Assembly: GCF_051622035.1 (NCBI RefSeq)
Contig: NC_135360.1
Span: 25,061,206-25,125,205, forward strand
Source: Arctopsyche grandis
Taxonomy: Eukaryota > Arthropoda > Insecta > Trichoptera > Hydropsychidae
Direction of reading: 5' to 3'
DNA: 64,000 nt
In this document: piece by piece, positions 13,401-46,341 of the stretch
How the letters are laid out: each line of letters starts with the position of its first letter
How positions within the stretch are numbered: position 1 is the stretch's first letter
Notes under the pieces: model-generated
Told to the model about the DNA's origin: nothing
The model's input: the letters and a program-made list of their open reading frames with translations, nothing else
Database searches by the model: none
Position numbers and translations under genes: made by a program

Positions 13401-14910
13401 TACATACATACCTATGCTTTTACTTTTTTGCCCTAAAAGCATGATTGAATTTTTGATAATAATTCTCAGAACTTTTCACAATGAAATTGTGTAATATTAT
13501 ACTCAATTACTACATATTATATTTACAATCTGACGACAACATCTTAATTCGAACGAGGCGACAACAATTAAGCAAATTACTAACGCGACAATCGAGTTAC
13601 GATTTTACTTTTCTTAATTGAGGTCGTGTGAAACTTTTCATACGTAGGTTCCATTCCGCCATTCTCAACTTCCTCTTTTTACACAACACGAAGAAAAAAT
13701 GCGAATTGCACGTTAGGAAAATTCCGTGTCGATACGATTGACGAAAATGTAACGACAGGTTGCGATCAGAATCAACCTTAGCCTAGAAAAAAACTGACTT
13801 GTATTAGGCAACGAACATTTATTGTATATTGTACTTTGCAATAATTTCCCTTCACATTTTAACATATGTGGGTATCTTTCAATCAAAAACTTCAACCTGT
13901 TGGAACCAAAATAGTACTGGATTCATCCATCATCGTTCCTCCCACAGACTCATCCTCGATTGTCAATCATACCCAGTGGGGTCACAATCGGTTCAGCATG
14001 TGCCAGCCCGCCTTCGCAACAAAACAATGTATTATTTCATTGCGTTTTCCCATAGTATATCGCGTGTGAGAACATATCTACAAGTGGCTGGAACAATCGT
14101 ATTTTCGGCTAGCAAGCTCACTCAGTGTGTAATATTATGGCAAATTACGCTCTCCTAGTTGGTTGGCAAGCGAGCTTCATGGCGTGAAGCTCTCCAAGAT
14201 GTATATTTGATATTATATTGTATACACGTGAAGCAATCTGTGTGTGTGTGGCAACGCACCCACAGCAGCAAACTCGCTCTTATTCAGCGAATTCATTGTT
14301 TTAGTCGTAGGTGGTGTGGTAATAATGTTCTGACGATAAAGAACTTCTTGCGTATACCTTCGTATCCCACATAAAAACGGAATATTAAGAAAAAAACACA
14401 TCTGATGTGATCAACACGTGACTTTCTCTTCGCGAATTGCACGTACTATTTTAACCATATCGAAGAAACTTACTGACTTAAGTGCAACCAATAGTTTCGG
14501 TATGAAGCTTCATTGTTATGGGCTTTGGCATTTTTTTAAGTTATCATTCTTAGATCTCCAGTGCTTGTTGCTATTATATAAATAATCTCTAGCAATTTTT
14601 GCATAAGCATTTTTTATATACCAATGAGTTTTTTAAGGTATTTGAGTGATAAGTCCATGTGATATTCAATATAAATTATTAGGATAATGGATTAGCTAAA
14701 TGATACATTAAATTTCAAAAGATATTTCAAAATGAGACCATTAAAAACCTATTATCAAATTCAGAATAAACTTTGGGCTATTGCCCTTTTTTTAATTCAC
14801 CTGGAAAATTTGAGCCAAAAATTAAGTTCATACTGTCGAGACTGTGAAGCGAAGAAAATTAGAAATCTAATCTATAATTTGGAAAGAGACTTTGTATGTA
14901 AATATCCTTG

Positions 14911-14950
14911 GTCGTCGTCGTCGTCGTCTTCGTCGTCTTCGTCGTCTTCG
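14911..14950 (+). repeat. TCG/TCT microsatellite in Helitron copy 1
   Basis: A run of TCG triplets interspersed with TCT near the Helitron 5' end. An equivalent run is at about 38505-38545 in copy 2. Read on the minus strand it gives an arginine run in one spurious frame. Confidence 0.85.
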
Positions 14951-15069
14951 TCCGTAGATCGGTGACGTCATCGAACACGTGATTCGATTTTTTTTTTTTT
15001 TCGATCCATGGGCGCCGATTTTTTTTTTCGTTTCAATGGATTCACCCCCGCGGGGGCGCAAGGCGAGTA

Positions 15070-16098
15070 GCTTCATGGGGCCCCGCCAGGGGCGCCACAA
15101 GGGGCGCAGCCCCGTGGGGCTCAAAAGGGGGCGCCACAAGGGGCGCAGCCCCGTGGGGCCCCGAAGGGGGCCCGGGGGGCCCAGCCTCATGGGGCGCAGC
15201 CCCATGGGGCTCAAAAGGGGGTGCCACAAGGGGCGCAGCCCCGTGAAGCCCCGAAGGGGGCGCGGGGGGCCCAGCCTCATGGGGCGCAGCCCCATGGGGC
15301 TCAAAAGGGGGCGCCACAAGGGGCGCAGCCCCGTGGGGCCCAGCCTCATGGGGCGCAGCCCCATGAGGCTCAAAAGGGGGCGCCACAAGGGGCGCAGCCC
15401 CGTGGGGCCCCGAAGGGGGCCCGGGGGGCCCCGAAGGGGGCCCGGGGGGCCCCGAAGGGGGCCCGGGGGGCCCAGCCTCATGGGGCGCAGCCCCATGGGG
15501 CTCAAAAGGGGGCGCCACAAGGGGCGCAGCCCCGTGGGGCCCCGAAGGGGGCCCGGGGGGCCCAGCCTCATGGGGCGCAGCCCCATGGGGCTCAAAAGGG
15601 GGTGCCACAAGGGGCGCAGCCCCGTGAAGCCCCGAAGGGGGCGCGGGGGGCCCAGCCTCATGGGGCGCAGCCCCATGGGGCTCAAAAGAGGGCGCCACAA
15701 GGGGCGCAGCCCCGTGGGGCCCCGAAGGGGGCCCGGGGGGCCCAGCCTCATGGGGCGCAGCCCCATGAGGCTCAAAAGGGGGCGCCACAAGGGGCGCAGC
15801 CCCGTGGGGCCCCGAAGGGGGCCCGGGGGGCCCAGCCTCATGGGGCGCAGCCCCATGGGGCTCAAAAGGGGGCGCCACAAGGGGCGCAGCCCCGTGGGGC
15901 CCCGAAGGGGGCCCGGGGGGCCCAGCCTCATGGGGCGCAGCCCCATGGGGCTCAAAAGGGGGCGCCACAAGGGGCGCAGCCCCGTGGGGCCCAGCCTCAT
16001 GGGGCGCAGCCCCATGGGGCTCAAAAGGGGGCGCCACAAGGGGCGCAGCCCCGTGGGGCCCCGAAGGGGGCCCGGGGGGCCCAGCCTCATGGGGCGCA
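15070..16098 (+). repeat. Array A: about 90-bp GC-rich tandem units
   Basis: About eleven units, each anchored by GGGGCTCAAAAGGGGGCGCC, then ACAAGGGGCGCAGCCCCGTGG, CCCCGAAGGGGGCCC and CAGCCTCATGGGGCGCAGCCCCAT. Unit length varies because the CCCGAAGGGGGCCCGGGG block is deleted in some units and triplicated at 15407-15470. GGGGCGCAGCCCC is a perfect 5-bp stem with a GCA triloop and occurs twice per unit. The array lacks stop codons in several frames on both strands, giving ORFs of up to 410 codons of Arg/Gly/Pro repeats. With no start context, shared frame or family match, these are treated as non-coding. Confidence 0.9.
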
Positions 16099-16104
16099 AG
16101 CCCT

Positions 16105-17500
16105 AATAGGCATTAACTAAGGGGGGCGAAGCCCTAGACGGCAATTAATCATGGGGGCGCGGAGGGGCGAAGCCCTAAAAGGCAACTGATCATGGGGGCG
16201 AAGCCTTAGACGGCATTTAATCATGGGGGCGCGGAGGGGCGAAGCCCTAAAAGGCATTAACTAAGGGGGGCGAAGCCCTAAACGGCAATTAATCTTGGGG
16301 GCGCGGGGGGCGAAGCCCTAAAAGGCAACTGATCATGGGGGCGAAGCCTTAGACGGCATTTAATCATGGGGGCGCGGAGGGGCGAAGCCCTAAAAGGCAT
16401 TAACTGAGGGGGGCGAAGCCCTAAACGGCAATTAATCTTGGGGGCGCGGGGGGCGAAGCCCTAAAAGGCAACTGATCATGGGGGCGAAGCCTTAGACGGC
16501 ATTTAATCATGGGGGCGCGGAGGGGCGAAGCCCTAAAAGGCATTAACTAAGGGGGGCGAAGCCCTAAACGGCAATTAATCTTGGGGGCGCGGGGGGCGAA
16601 GCCCTAAAAGGCAACTGATCATGGGAGCGAAGCCTTAGACGGCATTTAATCATGGGGGCGCGGAGGGGCGAAGCCCTAAAAGGCATTAACTAAGGGGGGC
16701 GAAGCCCTAAACGGCAATTAATCTTGGGGGCGCGGGGGGCGAAGCCCTAAAAGGCAACTGATCATGGGGGCGAAGCCTTAGACGGCATTTAATCATGGGG
16801 GCGCGGAGGGGCGAAGCCCTAAAAGGCATTAACTAAGGGGGGCGAAGCCCTAAACGGCAATTAATCTTGGGGGCGCGGGGGGCGAAGCCCTAAAAGGCAA
16901 CTGATCATGGGGGCGAAGCCTTAGACGGCATTTAATCATGGGGGCGCGGAGGGGCGAAGCCCTAAAAGGCATTAACTAAGGGGGGCGAAGCCCTAAACGG
17001 CAATTAATCTTGGGGGCGCGGGGGGCGAAGCCCTAAAAGGCAACTGATCATGGGGGCGAAGCCTTAGACGGCATTTAATCATGGGGGCGCGGAGGGGCGA
17101 AGCCCTAAAAGGCATTAACTAAGGGGGGCGAAGCCCTAAACGGCAATTAATCTTGGGGGCGTGGGGGGCGAAGCCCTAAAAGGCAACTGATCATGGGAGC
17201 GAAGCCTTAGACGGCATTTAATCATGGGGGCGCGGAGGGGCGAAGCCCTAAAAGGCATTAACTAAGGGGGGCGAAGCCCTAAACGGCAATTAATCTTGGG
17301 GGCGCGGGGGGCGAAGCCCTAAAAGGCATTAACTAAGGGGGGCGAAGCCCTAGACGGCATTTAATCATGGGGGTGCGGAGGGGCGAAGCCCTAAAAGGCA
17401 TTAACTAAGGGGGGCGAAGCCCTAAACGGCAATTGCTCATGGGGCGTGGAGGGGCGAAGCCCTAGAAGGCAAAGGCTCAGGGGGGCGCCGAGGGCGAAGC
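16105..17500 (+). repeat. Array B: 143-bp tandem units with GCGAAGC hairpins
   Basis: The GGCATTAACTAAGGGG anchor recurs at 16253, 16396 and 16539 and onward with an exact 143-bp period. There are about eight full units and several shortened ones at the end. Each full unit carries four GGGCGAAGCCY hairpins separated by AAACGGCAATTAATCTTGG, AAAAGGCAACTGATCATGG or AGACGGCATTTAATCATGG spacers. The hairpin core equals the GCGAAGC near the Helitron 3' end. Confidence 0.9.
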
Positions 17501-17510
17501 CCTAGAAGGC

Positions 17511-17690
17511 AAAAAAAAATTTTGATTTTTTTTTTTGATTTTTTAAAAAAAAAATTTTTATTTTTTTTTTTATTTTTTTTTTATATATTTTTTAATTTTT
17601 TTTTTGATTTTTTTTTTATTTTTTTTTTATTTTTTTTTTTAATTTTTAAATTTTTTTTTAATTTTTTTTTTTTTTTAATTAAATTAGCTT
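17511..17690 (+). repeat. T-rich low-complexity tract of Helitron
   Basis: Almost pure T with scattered A and GA interruptions between array B and the unique 3' terminus. Copy 2 has the matching tract at about 39890-40055 with small length differences. Confidence 0.85.
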
Positions 17691-17748
17691 AGTCATGTTT
17701 AAGCGGTTTATATTATAAACACTGAGCGAAGCCGGGTAATACAGCTAG

Positions 17749-20700
17749 TTAATCAATAAAGAGAACTTATTAATTTTATTAACTTAAAAAAATTACGGAA
17801 AAAATGATAAACTTGTATATAGTTTAAGTTTCTAACGTTTTCACTTTCCAAAACTAACATTATTAATTAAAACTATAACTCAATTGGTCTCTTTTTATAC
17901 ATACATACGGAATCCATTCGAAAGATAACTCTCACTTCTACAAAATACCGCTATAAATTCACCACAATTTATTACCTCATCAAATTTATCGGTTTTCTAA
18001 CTCAAAGCGATTTACGCAACAAATTTTCATATTCAAACCAAAAAAAAAAATTATACGTCCCTACAGTAATGGGCGAGGAAGTCAAACATCACCGTTATCT
18101 AAACGTTTCCTTATTGTGTACGGCATTTTGTCCGGAAAAGAACGATTTCCAAATGGAAAACTGAAACTTATTCACCGGATATTTGAATTCTTCACTCGTT
18201 GACAACCAAAATTCACATGCCATTGCAGTGAAAGTTAACCTGGGGCGGAGCTAATTCAATTTCCCATCGATGAACCCATAACACCCGACATAATTCAGAA
18301 TTTTCTCATCATACATATGTACATACATACGTATAAGGCGAGGTCCTCTTGTACCAGAATTTCCATTTAATTGGGCCGTCGACAACCTTCAATTTCAGCG
18401 AACTCGCTCGCTCATGTGCATCTTGAGAGAATATCGACGCAGCCTCTTTAGCAATTACGGCCGTTGCAATTTCGAGGTCTGCGCCATTATTGTACGGCGG
18501 CTATTATTCGCCGTGGTCTCGTCGCCAACATTCACCCATTGCCACACTCGAAGGCCAAACTACAGATGCTTATGTGTTTCAACTCTTGGCGACAATCATG
18601 CAAATGATACGAGTTCATAGTCACCGAGTGTTCACACCCACAGGCAGAATGTCTCTTTTATTGTTTTCTTAGTCACCTTTAATAACCACTCGAGCGTCAA
18701 ACCCACATTTTTGACTACTTTTAGTAATGAATTTTTATTTTAATGCCCATCATAAAATATATTGTTCATAGGCTAGCAGATTATTCAATTTTACAACAAA
18801 AAAAAATAAATTATAGTGAATTCTATACAATACAATGTTTGATAATCTTTAACAAACAATTCTCAACAAATTCAATGGTTTCAGGTATTTTTTAAAAGCT
18901 TTCCCTGTATTTATCTTTTAGTAAATAATAATAATAATAACAACTTTATAAACAATACAAAGGATCGCTGACTGTAAAGAGTCTTTAACTAACTTATAAA
19001 ATGTGTTCTAATATGAACATTATATAATAATTGTCGATAAATGTTTGCCTTTCAACCAGGCCTTTGGAGTTATTATTTTCTTTTTTACAATATGTTTCAA
19101 TTAGACAATTTTATTGAATTAAATCCACTAATATGTAAATTGAAATTTAATAATTTAAATTACATTATAAATAAAATCGTTGAATTGCACGTATTTTGAT
19201 GGGTTCTGGTAAAAATCAATTGTTTCCTCCGTCTCATTGTTTTTACTCTTATTCTTTTATTAAATTGATTTTTTTGTGTATGCATAAACTATGAATGTAT
19301 ATACTTAATTTTTATTTATACCTATTTCATTACCAATAATTCAATAAATTGGGATAAATGTCAATTTCAGTGATTTTTTTAATTCCTTTAATTTTTGTAT
19401 ATTTTGAAAATAGCTTTTATTTTTGCTACTAATAATTTTATACGTTGGCAAGAAAATTAGATCTTACTAAAATCATTCAAGTTCGGAGTCGAAGTCGGAG
19501 TCGTAGTCGAATCATAAAATAAATTCTGAGTTGGTAAATTTTGAACCGACTCCACAGCCCTGCTTTAAACTCTACCATTAAAATAAAACAGACGTTGTTA
19601 TACAAAAACGACTGCAAAAAATGTATAAATCATGTAGATCATAATTGCTGTATCGTCAACTATTAGATTACACCTTATAAAAAGTAAAAATCTTTAAAAA
19701 ATCAAATCAAAATCATAGGAAAACAATTCGCTTTCTACAAATCGTCCCAAATACTACATACATTCAGTGATTGGGAATACAGAATACTCGACAGTCAGAT
19801 TTTCTTCTGGGAAAATGGCCTTTTCGATATACATACATATGTATGTTTGTCTGCATTTATATTAGTAAAACTAATGTAGTGAATAGGTACATAATGTCTT
19901 TTTATGCACAGATATATGTATGTACCTAATACATAATTTCATCAGAATTTCATCTCCGCTCATATTATATTAAATTAAACCTTTTATGTAATATGTTAGT
20001 AGTGCGTATTGTGGTATTGCTTTGTGGTCAAATGTTGACTGGTGAAAAATCTGCAAACACAAAACGCGTCTATAAGGAAATCGTTCCTCGCGTACCGACT
20101 GACCCAATGGAAACTTGTTCGTTACGTAAGAAATAAACACGAAATATTTATTGAGTAACGGCAAAGCATTTCAAGTCTCATTAACATTCACATATTAAGG
20201 CTTTTTTCTTTTCCGTACCAGTTCTACTGGGCGCGTTGGTACGCCCATAGAAAACGATGATCATCAATAATAAACATGTGATCTCATTTTTTAATGTAAT
20301 CACTGCTTGCGTGTACACTTGTACAGGTGTCACGAAAATATATCGTCGTACTTAGTCAGCTCGTACTTTTGGCTAATGAAAGAAATATTGAAATTATCAA
20401 TGGTACTCAAAAATATAAACTGAAAAAAATTGACTTGAAAAAGCGTCAGGGCCTTGAATATGATCTCACCTTTTCCTCTCAATCGCTTTTTTCGTCATTT
20501 AAACAACCATTTTCCTGTTTCGTACGTGTTTCAATATATACTCATATTTTATTAAGCTGATATAATACAAAGAAATCCATCTAAAAAGATGGAGAAATTA
20601 AGTGTTGATACTTATGATAGGAAGTCCTAGAACTACATAAGTTCCAATGTTTATTTATAGAAATTTTTAAAATATTGGAAAAGCGACCAATTCTGAATCT

Positions 20701-36759: not shown

Positions 36760-39700
36760 TTACTTTGAATACTTTTCTTGAAATTCTTTCATATACGTTG
36801 CTAGGCTTTCGACATTAGCTACCGATACGGCGTTGTATATGGAAGCTCTAATTCCACCGACACTTCTAAAATGTTAAAATTATTTAAAACAGACTGATCT
36901 TCTATACTGGTTTTATAAAAAAAATAACTATCAACTATTTATGTACCTGTGTCCCTTCAAATGTAACATTCCTCTTTGACTTGCCCCCTTCAAGAAGACA
37001 TCTTCCAGTTTACCTTCACTGCACTCTCCTGAAATTCTGAACGTGACGTTCATCTTACTGCGAACTTTCCTGTTGACAGTGCTCACAAAAAAGCCTTTGG
37101 AATTGTCGATAATGTTATACAAGATATCTGATTTTGTATTTGAATTTGTTTGCATGCCTTTGATGCCACCATTAGACTTAATCCACTTGAACACTTCTAG
37201 CATAACGTAAATTCTGAAATAAACATGCAAACAATAGCATCTAAATCTCAATTACATGTGTAAGCGAACGTTGACATTGAAGATTGCTTACGCAAACGTC
37301 GGTGGGGTGTTGTTGAGCGAATTTTCTTTTACGTTGACGGTGAAATCTAAAACTGCCGGAGTGATAGGCAGCGGTGATCCCAATAAATCTTCCCGTACTA
37401 TCACTAAAGTTACACCGGCTGGTCCAATATTTTTTTGGGCTCCAGCATATATTAGACCGAACTAAAAAAATATCATACTTTTAAAAAACTTATCTAAATA
37501 GTGTATTTAAAATAAAAATAAAAATTATACTTTGGAGATGTCTAGTTCTCTGGTCATGATATTGGAAGACATGTCAGCAACCAAGGGCACACCTTTAACA
37601 TCTGGTATATAAGGAAATTCAACTCCTGTAATAATTCAAAATATAGATAACTTAAAATAACAGCAAAGGAAAAAAATACAATTTTTTTATAAAAATACTA
37701 ATTTGTATACCATCTACTGTTTCATTGAAACAAACGTGAACGTACGATGCATTTGGGTCGAGTTTCCATGTGCTGATATCAGGAATATCTTGATATTTAT
37801 CAGTCTTTGGTAAGACCAAATTTATTTTTCCATATTTAGCTGCCTCTTTTGCCGCTTTTGCTGACCAAGTGCCTTAAATTTTGATTTAAGTTTATATATA
37901 CTGCAGACTTCAATCTATAAAGTTTACATACATATGTCTATTATAATACCAGTGACTACATAATCAGCAGATCCAGTCCTAGACATAAAGTTTAATGGTA
38001 TAGCAGCAAACAAAGCAGTGCCACCGCCTTGTAAAAATATTATCTTGTAATTATCAGGAACATTCCTGAAATTTTTAATAATTTTTAAGTATTAATTTGA
38101 TTATTTATTGAGTTCCTTTGTGTTTTATTTCTACACTTACAGCAAATCTCTTACAAATTGTTGGCAATCATCATTGATCTTCATGTAATCACTTGAGCGA
38201 TGGCTCATTTCCATAACACTGATTTGTGAGTTGCCATATTTTACCAATTCTTTTTGCACATTCACCAAAACCTTTAAATCATATAAACCAAATGATACAT
38301 ATAATCCTTGCAAGTGATAAGCTAGTTTGACTTGAGCAAAATTAAATGCCTTATTAATATAATAAATGTAATTATAGTGTATATTTAATTCCCATTATCA
38401 AGCATTTTGATTGTCATATTACTTGACACGTGTACATAAATAATAAAAATATAATCAAATCTAATCTATAATTTGGAAAGAGACTTTGTATGTAAATATC
38501 CTTGGTCGTCGTCGTCGTCGTCTTCGTCGTCTTCGTCGTCTTCGTCCGTAGATCGGTGACGTCATCGAACACGTGATTCGATTTTTTTTTTTTTTCGATC
38601 CATGGGCGCCGATTTTTTTTTTCGTTTCAATGGATTCACCCCCGCGGGGGCGCAAGGCGAGTAGCTTCATGGGGCCCCGCCAGGGGCGCCACAAGGGGCG
38701 CAGCCCCGTGGGGCCCCAGCCTCATGGGGCGCAGCCCCATGGGGCTCAAAAGGGGGCGCCACGAGGGGCGCAGCCCCGTGGGGCCCAGCCTCATGGGGCG
38801 CAGCCCCATGGGGCTCAAAAGGGGGCGCCACGAGGGGCGCAGCCCCGTGGGGCCCCGGGGGGGCCCAGCCTCATGGGGCGCAGCCCCATGGGGCTCAAAA
38901 GGGGGCGCCACAAGGGGCGCAGCCCCGTGGGGCCCCGAAGGGGGCCCGGGGGGCCCAGCCTCATGGGGCGCAGCCCCATGGGGCTCAAAAGGGGGCGCCA
39001 CAAGGGGCGCAGCCCCGTGGGGCCCCGAAGGGGGCCCGGGGGGCCCAGCCTCATGGGGCGCAGCCCCATGGGGCTCAAAAGGGGGCGCCACAAGGGGCGC
39101 AGCCCCGTGGGGCCCCGAAGGGGGCCCGGGGGGCCCAGCCTCATGGGGCGCAGCCCCATGGGGCTCAAAAGGGGGCGCCACAAGGGGCGCAGCCCCGTGG
39201 GGCCCCGAAGGGGGCCCGGGGGGCCCAGCCTCATGGGGCGCAGCCCCATGGGGCTCAAAAGGGGGCGCCACAAGGGGCGCAGCCCCGTGGGGCCCCGAAG
39301 GGGGCCCGGGGGGCCCAGCCTCATGGGGCGCAAGCCCTAATAGGCATTAACTAAGGGGGGCGAAGCCCTAGACGGCAATTAATCATGGGGGCGCGGAGGG
39401 GCGAAGCCCTAAAAGGCAACTGATCATGGGGGCGAAGCCTTAGACGGCATTTAATCATGGGGGCGCGGAGGGGCGAAGCCCTAAAAGGCATTAACTAAGG
39501 GGGGCGAAGCCCTAAACGGCAATTAATCTTGGGGGCGTGGGGGGCGAAGCCCTAAAAGGCAACTGATCATGGGAGCGAAGCCTTAGACGGCATTTAATCA
39601 TGGGGGCGCGGAGGGGCGAAGCCCTAAAAGGCATTAACTAAGGGGGGCGAAGCCCTAAACGGCAATTAATCTTGGGGGCGCGGGGGGCGAAGCCCTAAAA

Positions 39701-40394
39701 GGCATTAACTAAGGGGGGCGAAGCCCTAGACGGCATTTAATCATGGGGGTGCGGAGGGGCGAAGCCCTAAAAGGCATTAACTAAGGGGGGCGAAGCCCTA
39801 AACGGCAATTGCTCATGGGGCGTGGAGGGGCGAAGCCCTAGAAGGCAAAGGCTCAGGGGGGCGCCGAGGGCGAAGCCCTAGAAGGCAAAAAAAAATTTTG
39901 ATTTTTTTTTTTGATTTTTTAAAAAATTTTTTTTTAATTTTTTTTTAATTTTTTTTTTATTTTTTTTTTAATTTTTTTTTTTGATTTTTTTTTTATTTTT
40001 TTTTTATTTTTTTTTTTAATTTTTAAATTTTTTTTTAATTTTTTTTTTTTTTAATTAAATTAGCTTAGTCATGTTTAAGCGGTTTATATTATAAACACTG
40101 AGCGAAGCCGGGTAATACAGCTAGTAAATAATAAAAACAATCGCAAGAAATTGGTGATATGACGTCGACTTTATCAAGGGTCAAAAGTATAATGTAATCT
40201 TTCTCGAAACTATTTTCTTAGAATATTATATTGACTATTTTCTCTAATGTTTTTGATAAGAATAAGAACAAAATAGGAAACAAGAATAAAAATATAAACT
40301 AATTAAAGAATGGAAAATAAATTAACTAATATAAAAAAATCACCTCTTCGGGTAATTTGGCTGGACCAGCTCCAAAATTAATTACAGACGCCAT
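36760..40394 (-). CDS. Psat: Phosphoserine aminotransferase, complete, 8 exons
   Basis: Exons on the minus strand are 40394-40344, 38271-38141, 38065-37950, 37872-37711, 37625-37531, 37461-37292, 37213-36947 and 36865-36760. They total 1,098 nt, i.e. 365 aa plus TAA, the usual length for the family. The enzyme is PLP-dependent and converts 3-phosphohydroxypyruvate and glutamate to O-phosphoserine (serine biosynthesis, cytosol). Diagnostic motifs are the N-terminus [54 protein letters not shown], the Schiff-base lysine in [12 protein letters not shown] (about Lys195) and the C-terminal [16 protein letters not shown]. All introns are GT-AG. Intron 1 (2,072 nt) hosts a Helitron. All key residues are intact, so the gene should be functional. 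Confidence 0.95.
38655..39330 (+). repeat. Array A in Helitron copy 2
   Basis: About seven roughly 90-bp GC-rich units with the GGGGCTCAAAAGGGGGCGCC anchor at about 38733, 38802 and 38884, then every 90 bp. The first two units are short forms lacking the CCCGAAGGGGGCCC block and read CACGAGG where others read CACAAGG. Long ORFs (up to 255 codons) across it on both strands are not annotated as genes. Confidence 0.88.
39337..39885 (+). repeat. Array B in Helitron copy 2
   Basis: GGCATTAACTAAGGGG anchors at about 39343, 39487 and 39631, followed by shortened units. It carries the same GGGCGAAGCCC hairpins and the same terminal degenerate units (GCTCATGGGGCGTGGAGG, GGCTCAGGGGGGCGCCGAGG) as copy 1, but with far fewer internal units. 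Confidence 0.88.
40125..40343. other. Remainder of PSAT intron 1
   Basis: AT-rich intron sequence between the Helitron and the donor of exon 1 (GTGATTTTTTT on minus). No feature seen. Confidence 0.7.
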
Positions 40395-40890
40395 CCTTTC
40401 ACTAGCAAGAATGCCGATAAACTGTTAGTGCTCAAACCAGTAAACAGATCGAGTATCTCCTCCCTGAAACCAGTTTTATTGCGACTGGGTGCTGTCTCGC
40501 GTCTGCTTCAAAATACAATAAATTTTTTCGTCAGATAAAGTCGAATAGTAACACATACATATTACGTAATCATGTTTGTACATTACACAAGTTTATCGTT
40601 TACATACGACCAATACAAAACATTTGGTGTACACATTTACATACCAATTTATTTATAAGCAGTTGTTAGCCGACCTGAAAATTTGTATTAAAAAACTGTA
40701 ATTTCATTTGCTTTCAATCAAAAACCTATTCTTTAAATCTTTAAAGATCTAATCATCGATATGACTTCAATAGGTCTTGTGCAAGTTGTCTATAAAAATT
40801 AAAAAACGACTTTAACATACTTAAATAAATAACTACGTTTTCAGAACTATTATAATTTTCTTCCATATCAATTAATCAAACCATATATAA
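40395..40890 (-). promoter_or_regulatory. 5' flank and probable promoter region of PSAT
   Basis: AT-rich sequence upstream of the PSAT start codon. The ATG has the context GGATGGCG. A GC-richer stretch to about 40505 probably contains the 5' UTR. No TATA box can be assigned with confidence. The region has no shared upstream gene; the next gene is over 8 kb away. Confidence 0.35.
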
Positions 40891-41768
40891 TAGATTGTGG
40901 CTATTTGCAGGTACTATATCTGCGAATTATTGGCTATTTGCAGGTACTATATCTGTGACAGGCGCAAAGCCTTCTGCGCATGCGCGTGAACTTATAATCC
41001 GATTATAATTTCTTACATTTAATGTGGGTCTACGTGACGAGCCAGAATGTTAAATTACAGAAAACACAAATATCGGAAGGCAAAGATCGAAAATCGAAAG
41101 ATCTTAAGTCGAAAGATAAAAAAAAGGGTACATGATAAACGGTATATACTCACTTAATTTGCGCGAGCAGGGTACAACAGGAACAAGAGGAACAGGCTTT
41201 TCCTCCAGTATTCTGCGCGCGCACATTAATACGGGAGGAAAAGCCTGTTCCTCTTGTTCCTGTTGTATCTTGCTCGCGCAAATTAAGTGAGTATGTACCG
41301 TTTACCATGCACCCTTTTTTATCTTTCGACTTAAGATCTTTCGATTTTCGATCTTTGCCTTCCGATATTTGCGTTTTATGTAATTTAACATTCCGGTTCG
41401 TCACGGAGACCGATTTAATGTATGCTAAACTTGTTTAATCAATCGTTCATTATACATGAGGCAAATAAATTTCGCACGTTATTATTATAGATTTATATAA
41501 TTTAGCTAGTTCGCGGCTTGTACTTGTATGTAGGTATTATTCGTTACATATGTACATATATGATAATAATTTTCTAACAATTAATAATATTAACTAATTT
41601 GGATTATATTTTTTAATCTACGTCACTTTACGAGTTCGAACTAAATTTTAAGAGGTTTAAAACAAAATTTTAACAGTAAACACGCTGACAGTGACAGTTC
41701 ACGCGCATGCGCATGCAAATAGCTAATAATTTGCAGATATGGTACCTGCAAATAGCCACAACATATAA
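40890..41768. mobile_element. Larger inverted-repeat element enclosing the fold-back element
   Basis: The left arm at about 40895-40992 (TTGTGGCTATTTGCAGGTAC, then GCGCATGCGCGTGAACTT) is matched in reverse at about 41695-41763 (GTTCACGCGCATGCGCATGC, then GGTACCTGCAAATAGCCACAA). The left arm carries an extra direct duplication of GGCTATTTGCAGGTACTATATCTG. The arms enclose 41026-41412 plus AT-rich spacer. No clear target duplication was found. Confidence 0.5.
41026..41412. mobile_element. Fold-back element with about 180-bp arms and 9-bp target duplication
   Basis: The arms are near-perfect reverse complements: left GGTCTACGTGACGAGCC, right GGTTCGTCACGGAGACC, continuing through AATATCGGAAGGCAAAGATC, CGAAAGATCTTAAGTCGAAA and AACAGGCTTTTCCTCC to a spacer of about 20 nt around 41213. 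ATTTAATGT flanks both sides (41017-41025 and 41413-41421). Long terminal repeats with a 9-bp duplication are typical of Mutator-like MITEs, though the family assignment is an inference. The transcript would form a long hairpin. Confidence 0.7.
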
Positions 41769-42667
41769 AATATCATACTCAAAACTTTTGAAGTATTGAT
41801 TAATTAAATTTTCAAATGAAAATTTCATTTCATATTCTACGCCAAATGGCGTAAAAAATGTTGTGAACCTCTGGTTTTTTTTAGTCGCAATAAAATGTGA
41901 ACATTTTTTTTCATCTTAGAAACAAAAAAGCTTGTAAAAAACATTATAATTCGCCAGTTTATATATTATACATACATATGTACGTATAATGTTTCATGCT
42001 TTTTTTTCGTTTCATATATACATATATGTACATATGTACATTCATACATAGAATACATATGTATGTACAATATTTAAATATTTTTTATGAATGAAAATTA
42101 TTTTAAAAACATATGTATGTATATTGTAAGAATTTTATTTACTTACAAAAACGAAGTCTGGAGTAGAATGGTCATTTATTTAATTCCATTTGGCTCTACT
42201 TTAATAATCTCAATTTTTCTATACATCTACGATTTTTCCTTGAAACACCAATATTCCTTAGGACAAAGTCTAAGCAATCCATATCTACATAAAATATGTA
42301 TATAATTACAAACTAATATCTTCATCGATTAACTTGAACATAAACTTATTTTAATGAAAATCAAAGGCAACGTATCATAACTTTTTGTTTTTATACACCT
42401 TGTTACATTAGTAAATAAGATATGAGTTTCTAGATAAATTTGTTGCGAGACCTAGTCATATTTTGAAATATTACGTCTACATACATATATATTTAATTGC
42501 TTTTAAATAAATATTATCAATAGCAATGATTACAATTTCAATTTGTTATCTTGTATTCAGTTAAAGAAATCATTTTTAATGTCTGACAAAAAATAAATAA
42601 CGGAATGCATTTTTTTCAATATAAATGAAATGATTGAAAAAAGAAGAAATTTAAAGTTTTATATAAA

Positions 42668-42748: not shown

Positions 42749-44362
42749 TAGCGGGCGATGAAAGGTGTCCACCCATAGAAAAGGGACAAAAGCTTGTGTA
42801 CATTTTTTTTGCGTGTCAGATGTTCAGGTAAAAGACCTTTTTTTGTTGAAAAGGATCCTTATCTTTAGGTATTCAAACAGTTGACCACTGTTTTTCGAAG
42901 GATTAGCACGTTTTGAAGTGATTTTGTGTACGATATGTCGGGTGTAAAACAATTAACCGAAGCGAATAAAGCGATAATTCTAACTCTGGCTGAAGAAAAA
43001 TTTAGTTCTCGCTACATCGCTCAGAAAGTAGGATGCAGTAAGACCTCTGTGCTTAATTGAATAAGAAAATATAAAAATTCAGCATCCCTAGAGAGGAAAA
43101 AAGGATCGGGAAAGCCCAGAAAGACCAACTCCGCCGAAGATAGACCCTTAAAAAGAATGTGTCTACAAAAACCGGTTCAAAAGTGCTGTGAAAATTAGAT
43201 CGGAGCTTATAGCAGCTGGGGGAAAAGAAATCAGCGTCGAAGTTGTACGTCGTCGCCTTAAAGAATACAGTTTAGTTGCCAGGATACCGGCGAAAAAATC
43301 ATTTTTGACCAAGAAAATGAGAATGCAACGACTGAATTGGGCCAAAAAATTTATTAATTGGACGGAAATGGACTGGAGGCGTGTTATCTCCTCGGAAGAA
43401 AGCAAATTTAATTTGTTTGGGTCCGATGGCATCCACTACATTCGACGAAGATCGGGCGAACGTTTGAGTGACGAATGTATTCAGCCTACGGTCAAACACC
43501 GTGCGGGCCAGATGGTCTGGGGATGTTTTTCTTTCCATGGGGTGGGTCCATTGGCCATAATTGATGGGACAGTTAACGCCGAAACATATAAAAAAATTTT
43601 AAAAGAACATTTGATACCAGCAATAGAAATGCACTATGCGTGGGAATCTGAATGCATTTTTCAAGACGATTCTGCACCATGTCATCTTGCCAAAACTGTA
43701 AGTAATCTTTTTTTTTATTGCTATGTATCCTAATCAACAAATAAAAATAAAAATATATCATTAAGTTATTATCTAAAATTTTAGGTCAAGAACTTCATTG
43801 CGGAAAGTGGCATTTCGCCCTTGGAACGGCCGGGTAACAGTCCGGATTTGAACCCAATAAAGAACCTGTGGGCTATAATGGGTTCTAAAATTAATAATAA
43901 GAAACCTTCCTCTAAATTATAATTAATTGAAAAAATAAAATATATATGGGATAACGATATCACAGATGAATATATTCAAAATTTAATTAAATCAGTGCCT
44001 CGAAGAGTTGAGGCTAATAAAAAAAATAAGGGGGGGCCAATCAAATATTGAAATAAATTTTATATATAAGTTTTATTATAATAAATGAAATGTGATTTTT
44101 AGATTTTTTATTAATACATGAGTTTTATGAAAAAATTTTTTTTTAATTACACTACTAAATTTTTCCATACATCACCGACTCCTAATAATTTGAATAACAT
44201 TATAGTTTCGTTTTAATTTCTTCGCATTACTACTTGAATTTCTTTCAAACTTCATAAATGCAATTTTAATAAACAAAAAAAATAAATACAATCGTTTATA
44301 AGTCCGAAAAACAAGAAAATATGAGTTTTTTCGAGGTGGACACCTTTCATCGCCCGTTACTG
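42746..44362 (+). mobile_element. Tc1/mariner transposon with degenerate transposase
   Basis: Terminal inverted repeats CAGTAGCGGGCGATGAAAGG at the left and CCTTTCATCGCCCGTTACTG at the right are flanked by TA. The total length of 1,617 bp is typical. It contains a broken transposase gene (separate entry). One mismatch in the TIRs and several lesions show an old, inactive copy. Confidence 0.85.
42935..44051 (+). pseudogene. Broken Tc1-type transposase
   Basis: The frame opens at ATG 42935 (MSGVKQLTEANK, a helix-turn-helix region with SSRYIAQKVGCSKTSV), hits TGA at 43058 and shifts frame near 43150-43180. It continues KSAVKIRSELIAAG to QDDSAPCHLAKT at 43697, where an 87-nt AT-rich segment with GTAAGT...TTTTAG ends (43698-43784) interrupts it. 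Then VKNFIAESGISPLERPGNSP continues, with TAA at about 43919. In the DDE triad the first Asp appears as Glu (SSEESKF), the second is kept (QDDSAP) and the third position, normally Glu in NPIENLW, is Lys (NPIKNLW). It cannot encode an active enzyme. Confidence 0.85.
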
Positions 44363-45440: not shown

Positions 45441-45704
45441 TATAAAGTTTTATTGTTTGCCTATGGTTGTACAAAGGTATGGTATTTGTGGGCAAAAGTA
45501 TGTCGTTCAGCGGTCTCTGGATATGGTAGAGTGTCGCTGGCTCAGCATTCAGCTATGTTCGGCAAGTCGCTGGATATGGTAGAGTGTCGCTGGCTCGGCG
45601 TTCAGCTATGTTCGGCAAGTCGCTGGATACGGCAGTGTGTTGCTGGCTGGTTGTTCTTCCAAGTCCGCGTAGTGAAGTGGTGGCTGGTCAGGAGCTGGAT
45701 GTTG

Positions 45705-45885
45705 ACTGGTCTGCTGCTGTGTGTCGACGCTTGCTGCTCTGGGTCGACTGGTCTGGTGCTGTGTGTCGACGCTTGCTGTTGTGGGTCGACTGGTCTGGTG
45801 CTGTGTGTCGACGCTTGCTGTTGTGGGTCGACTCGTCTGGTGCTGTGTGTCGACGCTTGCTGTTGTGGGTCGACTGGTCTGGTTT
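45705..45885 (+). repeat. 42-bp tandem repeat
   Basis: Four to five copies of a 42-bp unit (GGTCTGGTGCTGTGTGTCGA, then CGCTTGCTGTTGTGGGTCGA). Being a multiple of three, it keeps frames open on both strands. Shared ORFs of 118-286 codons here are not considered genes. Confidence 0.85.
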
Positions 45886-45913
45886 GGGTTGTACCTCCTT
45901 TTATAGTGTTTTT

Positions 45914-46057
45914 GGAATGCTTGGTGGAAGTGGTTATTGACGCGTACGAAAGGAATTTTGTTTTCGTCGAGGCGTCGAATTTTCTGGAATGCTTGATGGA
46001 AGTGGTTATTGACGCGTACGAGAGGAATTTTGTTTTCGTCGAGGCGTCGAATTTTCT
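45914..46057 (+). repeat. 72-bp tandem duplication
   Basis: GGAATGCTTGGTGGAAGTGG begins at 45914 and repeats at 45986 with few changes; a third partial start is at 46058. Confidence 0.85.
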
Positions 46058-46341
46058 GGAATGCTTGGCGCCTTTCCGCTCGATGTATTTTAATGGTGGC
46101 GGCGTGTTTCGACCGTTTTGGTTCCACTCGACTGGTAGGGGCGTTCCGCCTGAGTTTAATATAACGACTGCAGGTGCATATCGTCTGGGTTTCGGGAATG
46201 TAGTTTGTTGTTGCGGAGTATTCTCGAAGGTTTCGATGACGATGACGACGACGAGATTCCTACAATATTATTCACGAAAATTTTTTTATTCCCATTTATA
46301 TTTCAGTAGTTAGTTGTTACATAGGTATTGGTATATACATA

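Follow-up and report, generated by a model that had tools for sequence, protein, structure and literature searches.

The 64,000-nt stretch of the Arctopsyche grandis genome analyzed here (contig NC_135360.1, positions 25,061,206 to 25,125,205, forward strand; hereafter the window) carries two copies of a non-autonomous canonical Helitron whose interior is filled by two tandem arrays, A and B, of mini-hairpins with GNA loops. The element belongs to a young, high-copy family that has been recently amplified, and we consider it probable that its arrays arose from a 40-nt module and were then changed by whole blocks. A sequence-only reading of the window had recognized the TC and CTAG ends lying between A and T, as well as both arrays, and we find all of these in both copies. 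It had also proposed that the arrays were made by repeated bypass or re-use of the element's own terminator during rolling-circle replication, a proposal that the evidence below does not bear out.

The ends and insertion sites are those of canonical Helitrons (5' TC, 3' CTRR, insertion between A and T without target duplication). T lies directly 3' of the element in 40 of 41 elements, and A lies directly 5' in 23 of the 30 that do not have CTAG or CTA just before them, with T or C in the other seven. The terminator, ACTGAGCGAAGCCGGGT, is an imperfect palindrome of 17 nt (5 of 7 positions paired) located 11 nt from the 3' end, which agrees with the 16-20 nt and approximately 11 nt of canonical Helitrons; the available part of one source places their 3' palindrome at this same position relative to the end (PMC4067079). 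As had been claimed, GCGAAGC lies 16 nt from the 3' end, and it forms part of the terminator, although it is not the terminator by itself, being the apex of the longer palindrome. In most short array-less relatives the terminator reads ACCGAGCGAAGCCGGGT, which by eye pairs as CCG-a-GC-GAA-GC-CGG with one A bulged. The hallmarks of Helentrons and HINEs are absent, since the target is A|T in those 23 of 30 elements and not TT or T-rich, and since the longest exact match found in a comparison of the first 80 and last 120 nt of copy 1 for subterminal inverted repeats is 6 nt. No Helitron transposase is seen among the longer open frames of the window, Pfam gave no match at E 0.01 for the long open frame that crosses array A, and scans of the window with Rfam (gathering threshold) and for tRNAs were empty. 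The element ends are those on which a Helitron transposase would act in trans.

Both arrays are built as the sequence-only reading described them, with four GGGCGAAGCCY hairpins in each B unit and GGGGCGCAGCCCC in the A units. Copy 1 holds 22 occurrences of GGGGCGCAGCCCC in array A, 37 of GGGCGAAGCCY and 40 of GCGAAGC (terminator copy included). Outside the two elements the window contains neither GGGCGAAGCCY nor GGGGCGCAGCCCC on either strand, so the hairpin arrays are not a product of chance. T-runs also occur inside copy 1, besides its microsatellite, arrays and spacer. The two copies lie in unrelated flanks and are identical over their first 255 and last 86 nt, and their T-rich spacers differ by 8 mismatches and two 1-nt gaps. 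Their B arrays differ by exactly 858 bp, or 6 x 143, and their A arrays by gaps of 149, 52, 90 and 69 bp plus a few mismatches.

Exact searches of the genome (475.7 Mb in 189 contigs, with the window on contig C6) returned 922 copies of the 33-nt 5' end, 1586 of the 24-nt 3' end and 8736 of a 19-nt B hairpin, and reversed-pattern controls of the end and hairpin searches gave no matches. In the first 19.65 Mb of contig C1, exact 5' ends number 64, and 60 of them are followed by an exact 3' end within 6 kb. The 5'-to-3' distances on C1 range from 918 to 4423 bp and are upper bounds, because at least two of them span two elements (L044 and L051, where a nearer 3' end carries one mismatch). The copies that were fetched are the first listed on C1, two chosen tandem clusters and one pair on contig C2; since they come mostly from one end of C1, the fractions given here are not genome-wide estimates. 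The counts leave out L007 and L011, which are the same places as L015 and L019, and the twice-read place of L030/L031.

Reading through 29 of the 64 exact 5' ends on C1 indicates where the elements stop. The 3' terminator is reached in 27, of which 25 are array-bearing and continue across both array B and the T-rich spacer; in L053 and L056 the 3' end has a single mismatch. None of the 29 ends at an internal B hairpin followed by CTGA|T. From these sequences, the array hairpins do not seem to work as terminators, a role that seems to belong to the single 3' palindrome with CTAG. The sequence-only reading had named two outcomes that would speak against it, namely arrays existing as an independent satellite and array-less copies at sites other than A|T. 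Neither is borne out: all 12 array clusters among the first 100 matches listed, in C1:0.65-6.64 Mb (the last cluster covered in part), lie within an element, 154-988 nt upstream of a same-strand Helitron 3' end, with none outside, and eight of 12 array-less relatives sit at A|T.

The evidence on how the arrays change comes from 29 array-bearing elements, of which two are the window copies and 27 were fetched. Array counts and length differ in all 29, which gives the graded series of sizes that had been anticipated. By contrast, the unique sequence (~159 nt, comparable in 28 of the 29 elements, 378 pairs) has a median pairwise difference of 1, and the remainder of the element therefore changes far more slowly than the arrays. 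If 1 edit is allowed, the core of the A/B junction is recognized in 27 of 29; a plain B block matches it with 2, so the other two elements are undecided. The 3' edge of array B is present with at most 4 edits in 28 of 29, against 11 for a plain B block. Both edges of array B are recognizable in 26 elements, 18 of which have an edge-to-edge distance of 62 or 63 modulo 143. Because so many share this residue, the arrays appear to grow mostly in units of one complete four-hairpin block, with both edges staying fixed. Such block-wise change is most likely explained by slippage or unequal exchange, and it does not fit the addition of single terminators.

Array-less relatives apparently supply the earlier stages. 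We read 12 of them end to end (342-1005 bp); they have similar ends, and most carry a GC-rich hairpin module in mid-element. With up to 4 edits allowed, the 40-nt module found at the 3' edge of array B is present in 29 of 31 array-bearing places, compared with the 7 edits required by a plain B block. It also occurs in two to three copies, again within 4 edits, in four of 21 array-less 3'-end places (L015, L043, L045 and L049), and a fifth (L052) has a single copy within 6 edits. The relatives form a staged series from no module through a few modules to large arrays, and the arrays have apparently grown from the short hairpin module of the shorter, array-less elements. L042 bears a different array, of 15-nt GCGCAGC-type repeats. 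Two of these places are noteworthy for their 3' ends. In the 342-bp element L019 the 3' end has an inverted copy just upstream (CTAGCTGTATTACC ... GGTAATACAGCTAG), as would result from copying of a folded-back end, and L049 (C1:10871273- and 10871719+) is a segment of ~470 bp bordered on both sides by Helitron 3' ends of opposite direction, resembling the inverted pair of a miniature inverted-repeat transposable element.

The course of events that we consider probable would begin with older, shorter relatives that had similar ends and a central GC-rich hairpin module. Within a single lineage, a 40-nt version of this module would have duplicated and given rise to two unit types, A and B, which were then built into higher-order arrays. 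A common origin of the two unit types is no more than suggested by their sequences. Later expansion and contraction would have kept mostly to the register, in steps of entire blocks (143 nt in B; gaps such as 90 and 69 in A) with the edges fixed. The most likely process is slippage or unequal exchange on a strand able to fold into mini-hairpins, perhaps at the single-stranded stage of rolling-circle copying.

Several results weigh against this account. Eight of the 26 B arrays have other, scattered residues modulo 143, and other kinds of event must therefore also occur. When A and B units are compared for a shared origin, 34 and 79 of 1000 shuffles score as high. The folding of units, which the sequence-only reading had asked about, gave a divided answer in the ViennaRNA DNA model: array A folds more than its shuffles (z -2.52) and array B folds less (z +1.94); the terminator region shows no excess (z +0.30 and +0.99). 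Hairpins of the d(GCGAAGC) type are unusually stable, and the ViennaRNA DNA model is not known to include a bonus for GNA loops; the extra stability is not seen in the energy model used here. Of the four C1 elements without an exact 3' end, which include L053 and L056, L054 stops within array A where there is no CTRR and L055 has an array and no 3' end; the reading covers 29 of the 64 exact 5' ends. Assembly error may affect the arrays, and the pair L057/L058 is 100% identical over 6580 bp and so says nothing on timing.

The strongest form of the earlier proposal holds that bypass or re-use of the terminator made every array unit, so that the array would be a stack of terminators. Array B and the terminator do have the apex GCGAAGCC in common, and in one B subunit out of four GCGAAGC is followed after 12 nt by CTGA and T, with exactly the same spacing as at the true end. 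This spacing is found in 8 of 39 hairpins of copy 1 and 2 of 15 of copy 2, and 1.3% of 20000 shuffles have such a site; because the pattern was spotted while looking, we give it little weight. Local similarity to the last 33 nt extends over 8 nt only, which in the B block are GCGAAGCC, and of 1000 shuffles 97 equalled it with the B block, 55 with the B edge and 434 with array A. Copies differ mostly by 143-nt blocks and not by single terminators, a T-rich gap of ~170 nt separates the arrays from the terminator, the elements read never end at a B hairpin, and the tandem product that is present in this genome is the whole-element junction CTAG|TC. The dozens of hairpin copies are real, then, but that bypass amplified them as terminator-like modules is very improbable.

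A gentler version deserves more room. An early head-to-tail dimer could have fused and its inner terminator decayed into the GC module, with slippage making the arrays later. The module of several old relatives can be aligned with the terminator over CCGAG(GG)CGAAGCC, a match equalled by only 5, 8 and 15 of 500 shuffles in L028, L036 and L035. Across all 12 relatives, however, the values are 5, 5, 8, 15, 18, 32, 35, 42, 83, 100, 136 and 204 of 500, so that the last four are matched by many shuffles, and the value of 18 comes from the longer of the two L027 elements, in which other sequence gives the best match. Downstream of the GC module, six of the 12 have an internal copy of their own 5' end (L022, both L027 elements, L028, L035 and L036; 0-7 of 300 shuffles), which is the place expected after the terminator in a dimer, and CTAG|TC junctions are frequent in the genome; L025 also scored, but on a microsatellite. 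On the other side, the internal 5' copy starts 32-75 nt past the last hairpin, compared with 22 nt in a true junction (hand count), the 12 relatives are not independent of one another, and GC-rich DNA can yield GNA-loop hairpins by chance. Since the module shares a core with the terminator and is followed by an internal 5' copy, a bypassed terminator as the seed is possible, though unproven; given the overlong spacing and the non-independence of the relatives, we regard the dimer seed as unlikely while keeping it in view. A fuller scenario, in which such a dead terminator seeded both arrays, growth by four-hairpin blocks took place in rolling-circle copying and the live terminator was read correctly past its look-alikes, we likewise find doubtful. 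The arrays might instead be a former independent GC-rich minisatellite of the host picked up by the Helitron. The GC content of the arrays (58-79%, compared with 36% for the rest of the window) is in keeping with this, and capture of DNA by Helitrons has been reported in the part of the literature available to us (PMC4778049). Yet the array clusters listed are all inside elements and some relatives have one to three modules in the same position, and capture is accordingly a poor candidate. Growth from the 40-nt module by whole blocks thus remains the reading we prefer.

The family is also found in head-to-tail arrangement. The exact junction CAGCTAG|TCTAATCTATAATTTGG occurs 167 times in the genome, and among 100 listed 3' ends on C1, 15 have an exact 5' end within the following 300 nt, 11 of them without an intervening base. 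Runs joined by CTAG|TC extend over C1:10456500-10473400 (L030, L031) and C1:19469000-19478400 (L032). Adjoining elements mostly differ in their arrays; in L032, three adjacent units have an equal B span and unequal A arrays, and in the L030 pair both members contain the same run of A-array tokens. Over the ~159 unique nt, neighbours differ by 1, 1, 1, 2, 8 and 9 (six of eight pairs comparable), against the all-pair median of 1. The comparison of junction flanks covers 14 distinct places (18 rows less one read twice and three in the duplicated locus L058). At L018 a 3' end with 5 edits is joined to a young 5' end, at L057 a young 3' end is joined to an old-type 5' end, and at L016 and L045 the preceding CTAG comes from outside the family. 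Whole-element rolling-circle concatemers were considered as the sole source of the junctions and rejected, as neighbours are no closer than unlinked copies and some differ in age. Consecutive insertion fits the junctions, because an element inserted after the host A, just ahead of the initial T of a resident element, would create an exact CTAG|TC; it is among the two models discussed for head-to-tail Helitrons of maize in the part of that report available (PMC2267711). True tandem copies are probably present as well, since the L030 pair shares its A-array run. The loci L057 (C2:31.63 Mb, minus strand) and L058 (C2:33.47 Mb, plus strand) are identical over 6580 bp in inverted orientation, flanks included, and each holds three young elements in a run, then an old-type 5' end; they represent either a very recent duplication or an assembly duplicate. 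At C1:27060073-27060197 the 33-nt 5' end occurs three times, spaced 46 nt.

Beyond this genome, exact-match scans of viral contigs did not find the 3' end, a relaxed 3' end or part of the 5' end. The B hairpin had one match there (L001, a single hairpin within the 301 bases read), and a double A-type hairpin matched in three contigs (L002-L004). The 5' end was not found in bacterial and archaeal genomes. Elsewhere in the window, open frames carry CUB, LDL-receptor and EGF domains. Positions 40883-41773 contain nested inverted repeats, including arms of 97 and 93 nt with 95% and 94% complementarity, and an open frame at 43152-43733 encodes a helix-turn-helix domain of Tc3-type transposases. Tandem repeats of 53, 42 and 72 nt lie in an open frame at 45513-46067, whose Pfam match is sub-threshold only.

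Table 1. Coordinates of the two Helitron copies and their parts (window positions).
Feature	Position	Strand	Remarks
Copy 1, non-autonomous Helitron, 2883 bp	14866..17748	+	A at 14865, T at 17749
5' end of copy 1, starts TCTAATCTATAATTTGG	14866..14910	+	TC at 14866; first 33 nt counted genome-wide
GTC-rich microsatellite, close to 5' end of copy 1	14911..14952	+	
Array A, copy 1: 90-nt, 69-nt and variant units; GCA-loop hairpins GGGGCGCAGCCCC	about 15091..16081	+	
A/B junction, copy 1	16082..16125	+	
Array B, copy 1: 143-nt blocks, each made of subunits of 31, 41, 31 and 40 nt that all bear a GAA-loop hairpin	16126..17453	+	
Array B 3' edge, copy 1: 40-nt module common to some array-less relatives	17454..17506	+	
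T-rich spacer, array B to 3' terminal region	17507..17676	+	
3' terminator palindrome ACTGAGCGAAGCCGGGT, imperfect	17721..17737	+	11 nt to element end
CTAG 3' end of copy 1	17745..17748	+	
Copy 2, 1665 bp, smaller arrays	38460..40124	+	A and T flanks
Array A, copy 2	38685..39315	+	
Array B, copy 2: six 143-nt blocks fewer than copy 1	39360..39829	+	
40-nt module, array B 3' edge, copy 2	39830..39882	+	
3' terminator palindrome, copy 2	40097..40113	+	last 86 nt same as copy 1

The family may be useful beyond its own history. GNA hairpins number in the tens in young copies, and of the four B subunit types in the window copies one also shows CTGA|T at the spacing of the terminator. No element among the 29 read from the 5' end stops at such a site, and the family is in this sense a natural experiment on the requirements of a Helitron terminator other than a hairpin and CTRR. 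Copies that are nearly identical but have graded arrays could tell change during rolling-circle transposition from change afterwards, and the family could show how transposons give rise to satellites.

The sequence-only reading knew of no Helitron family with this architecture. Within the literature search, which had Repbase and Dfam outside its range and took sources in part, we found no description of this family or of a Helitron interior made of higher-order GNA-hairpin blocks, and the exact motifs led, by title and abstract, only to papers on other subjects. Internal arrays as such, in contrast, have already been reported. Hel-2, from Lepidoptera and insect viruses, has TC/CTAG ends, A/T flanks, a 3' stem-loop and internal tandem arrays like the element described here, with array length and unit shown in a figure (PMC4344730). 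The portion of that report available mentions no hairpin higher-order arrays, and the two are compared here by description. HINE/DINE-1 elements, which are non-autonomous Helentrons, similarly have a microsatellite, then central tandem repeats and a 3' palindrome; GTC-type microsatellites occur in several, and two successive array types exceptionally in oyster elements, according to the passages available (PMC7492417, PMC4067079). They differ in their TT or T-rich sites and subterminal inverted repeats, whereas our element has an A|T site, a CTAG end and no subterminal exact repeat over 6 nt. Head-to-tail Helitrons of maize share the exact CTAG|TC junctions (PMC2267711, where bat tandems are cited), and the available text judges the maize pair, two differing elements, to be consecutive insertions; the present family is unlike that case in having 167 exact junctions, some between elements of very different arrays or ages. 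Helraiser, the reconstructed bat Helitron, has TC/CTAG ends and a 3' palindrome 11 nt from its end as well. In the part of its description at hand, this palindrome is the terminator, exchange of its stem has little effect, and changes of the loop and closing pair matter (PMC4778049). Helraiser differs in its 19-nt palindrome and encoded transposase, and the same part mentions no hairpin arrays. Internal arrays are therefore already known in Helitrons, and the hairpin-block form found in A. grandis is a variant of them.

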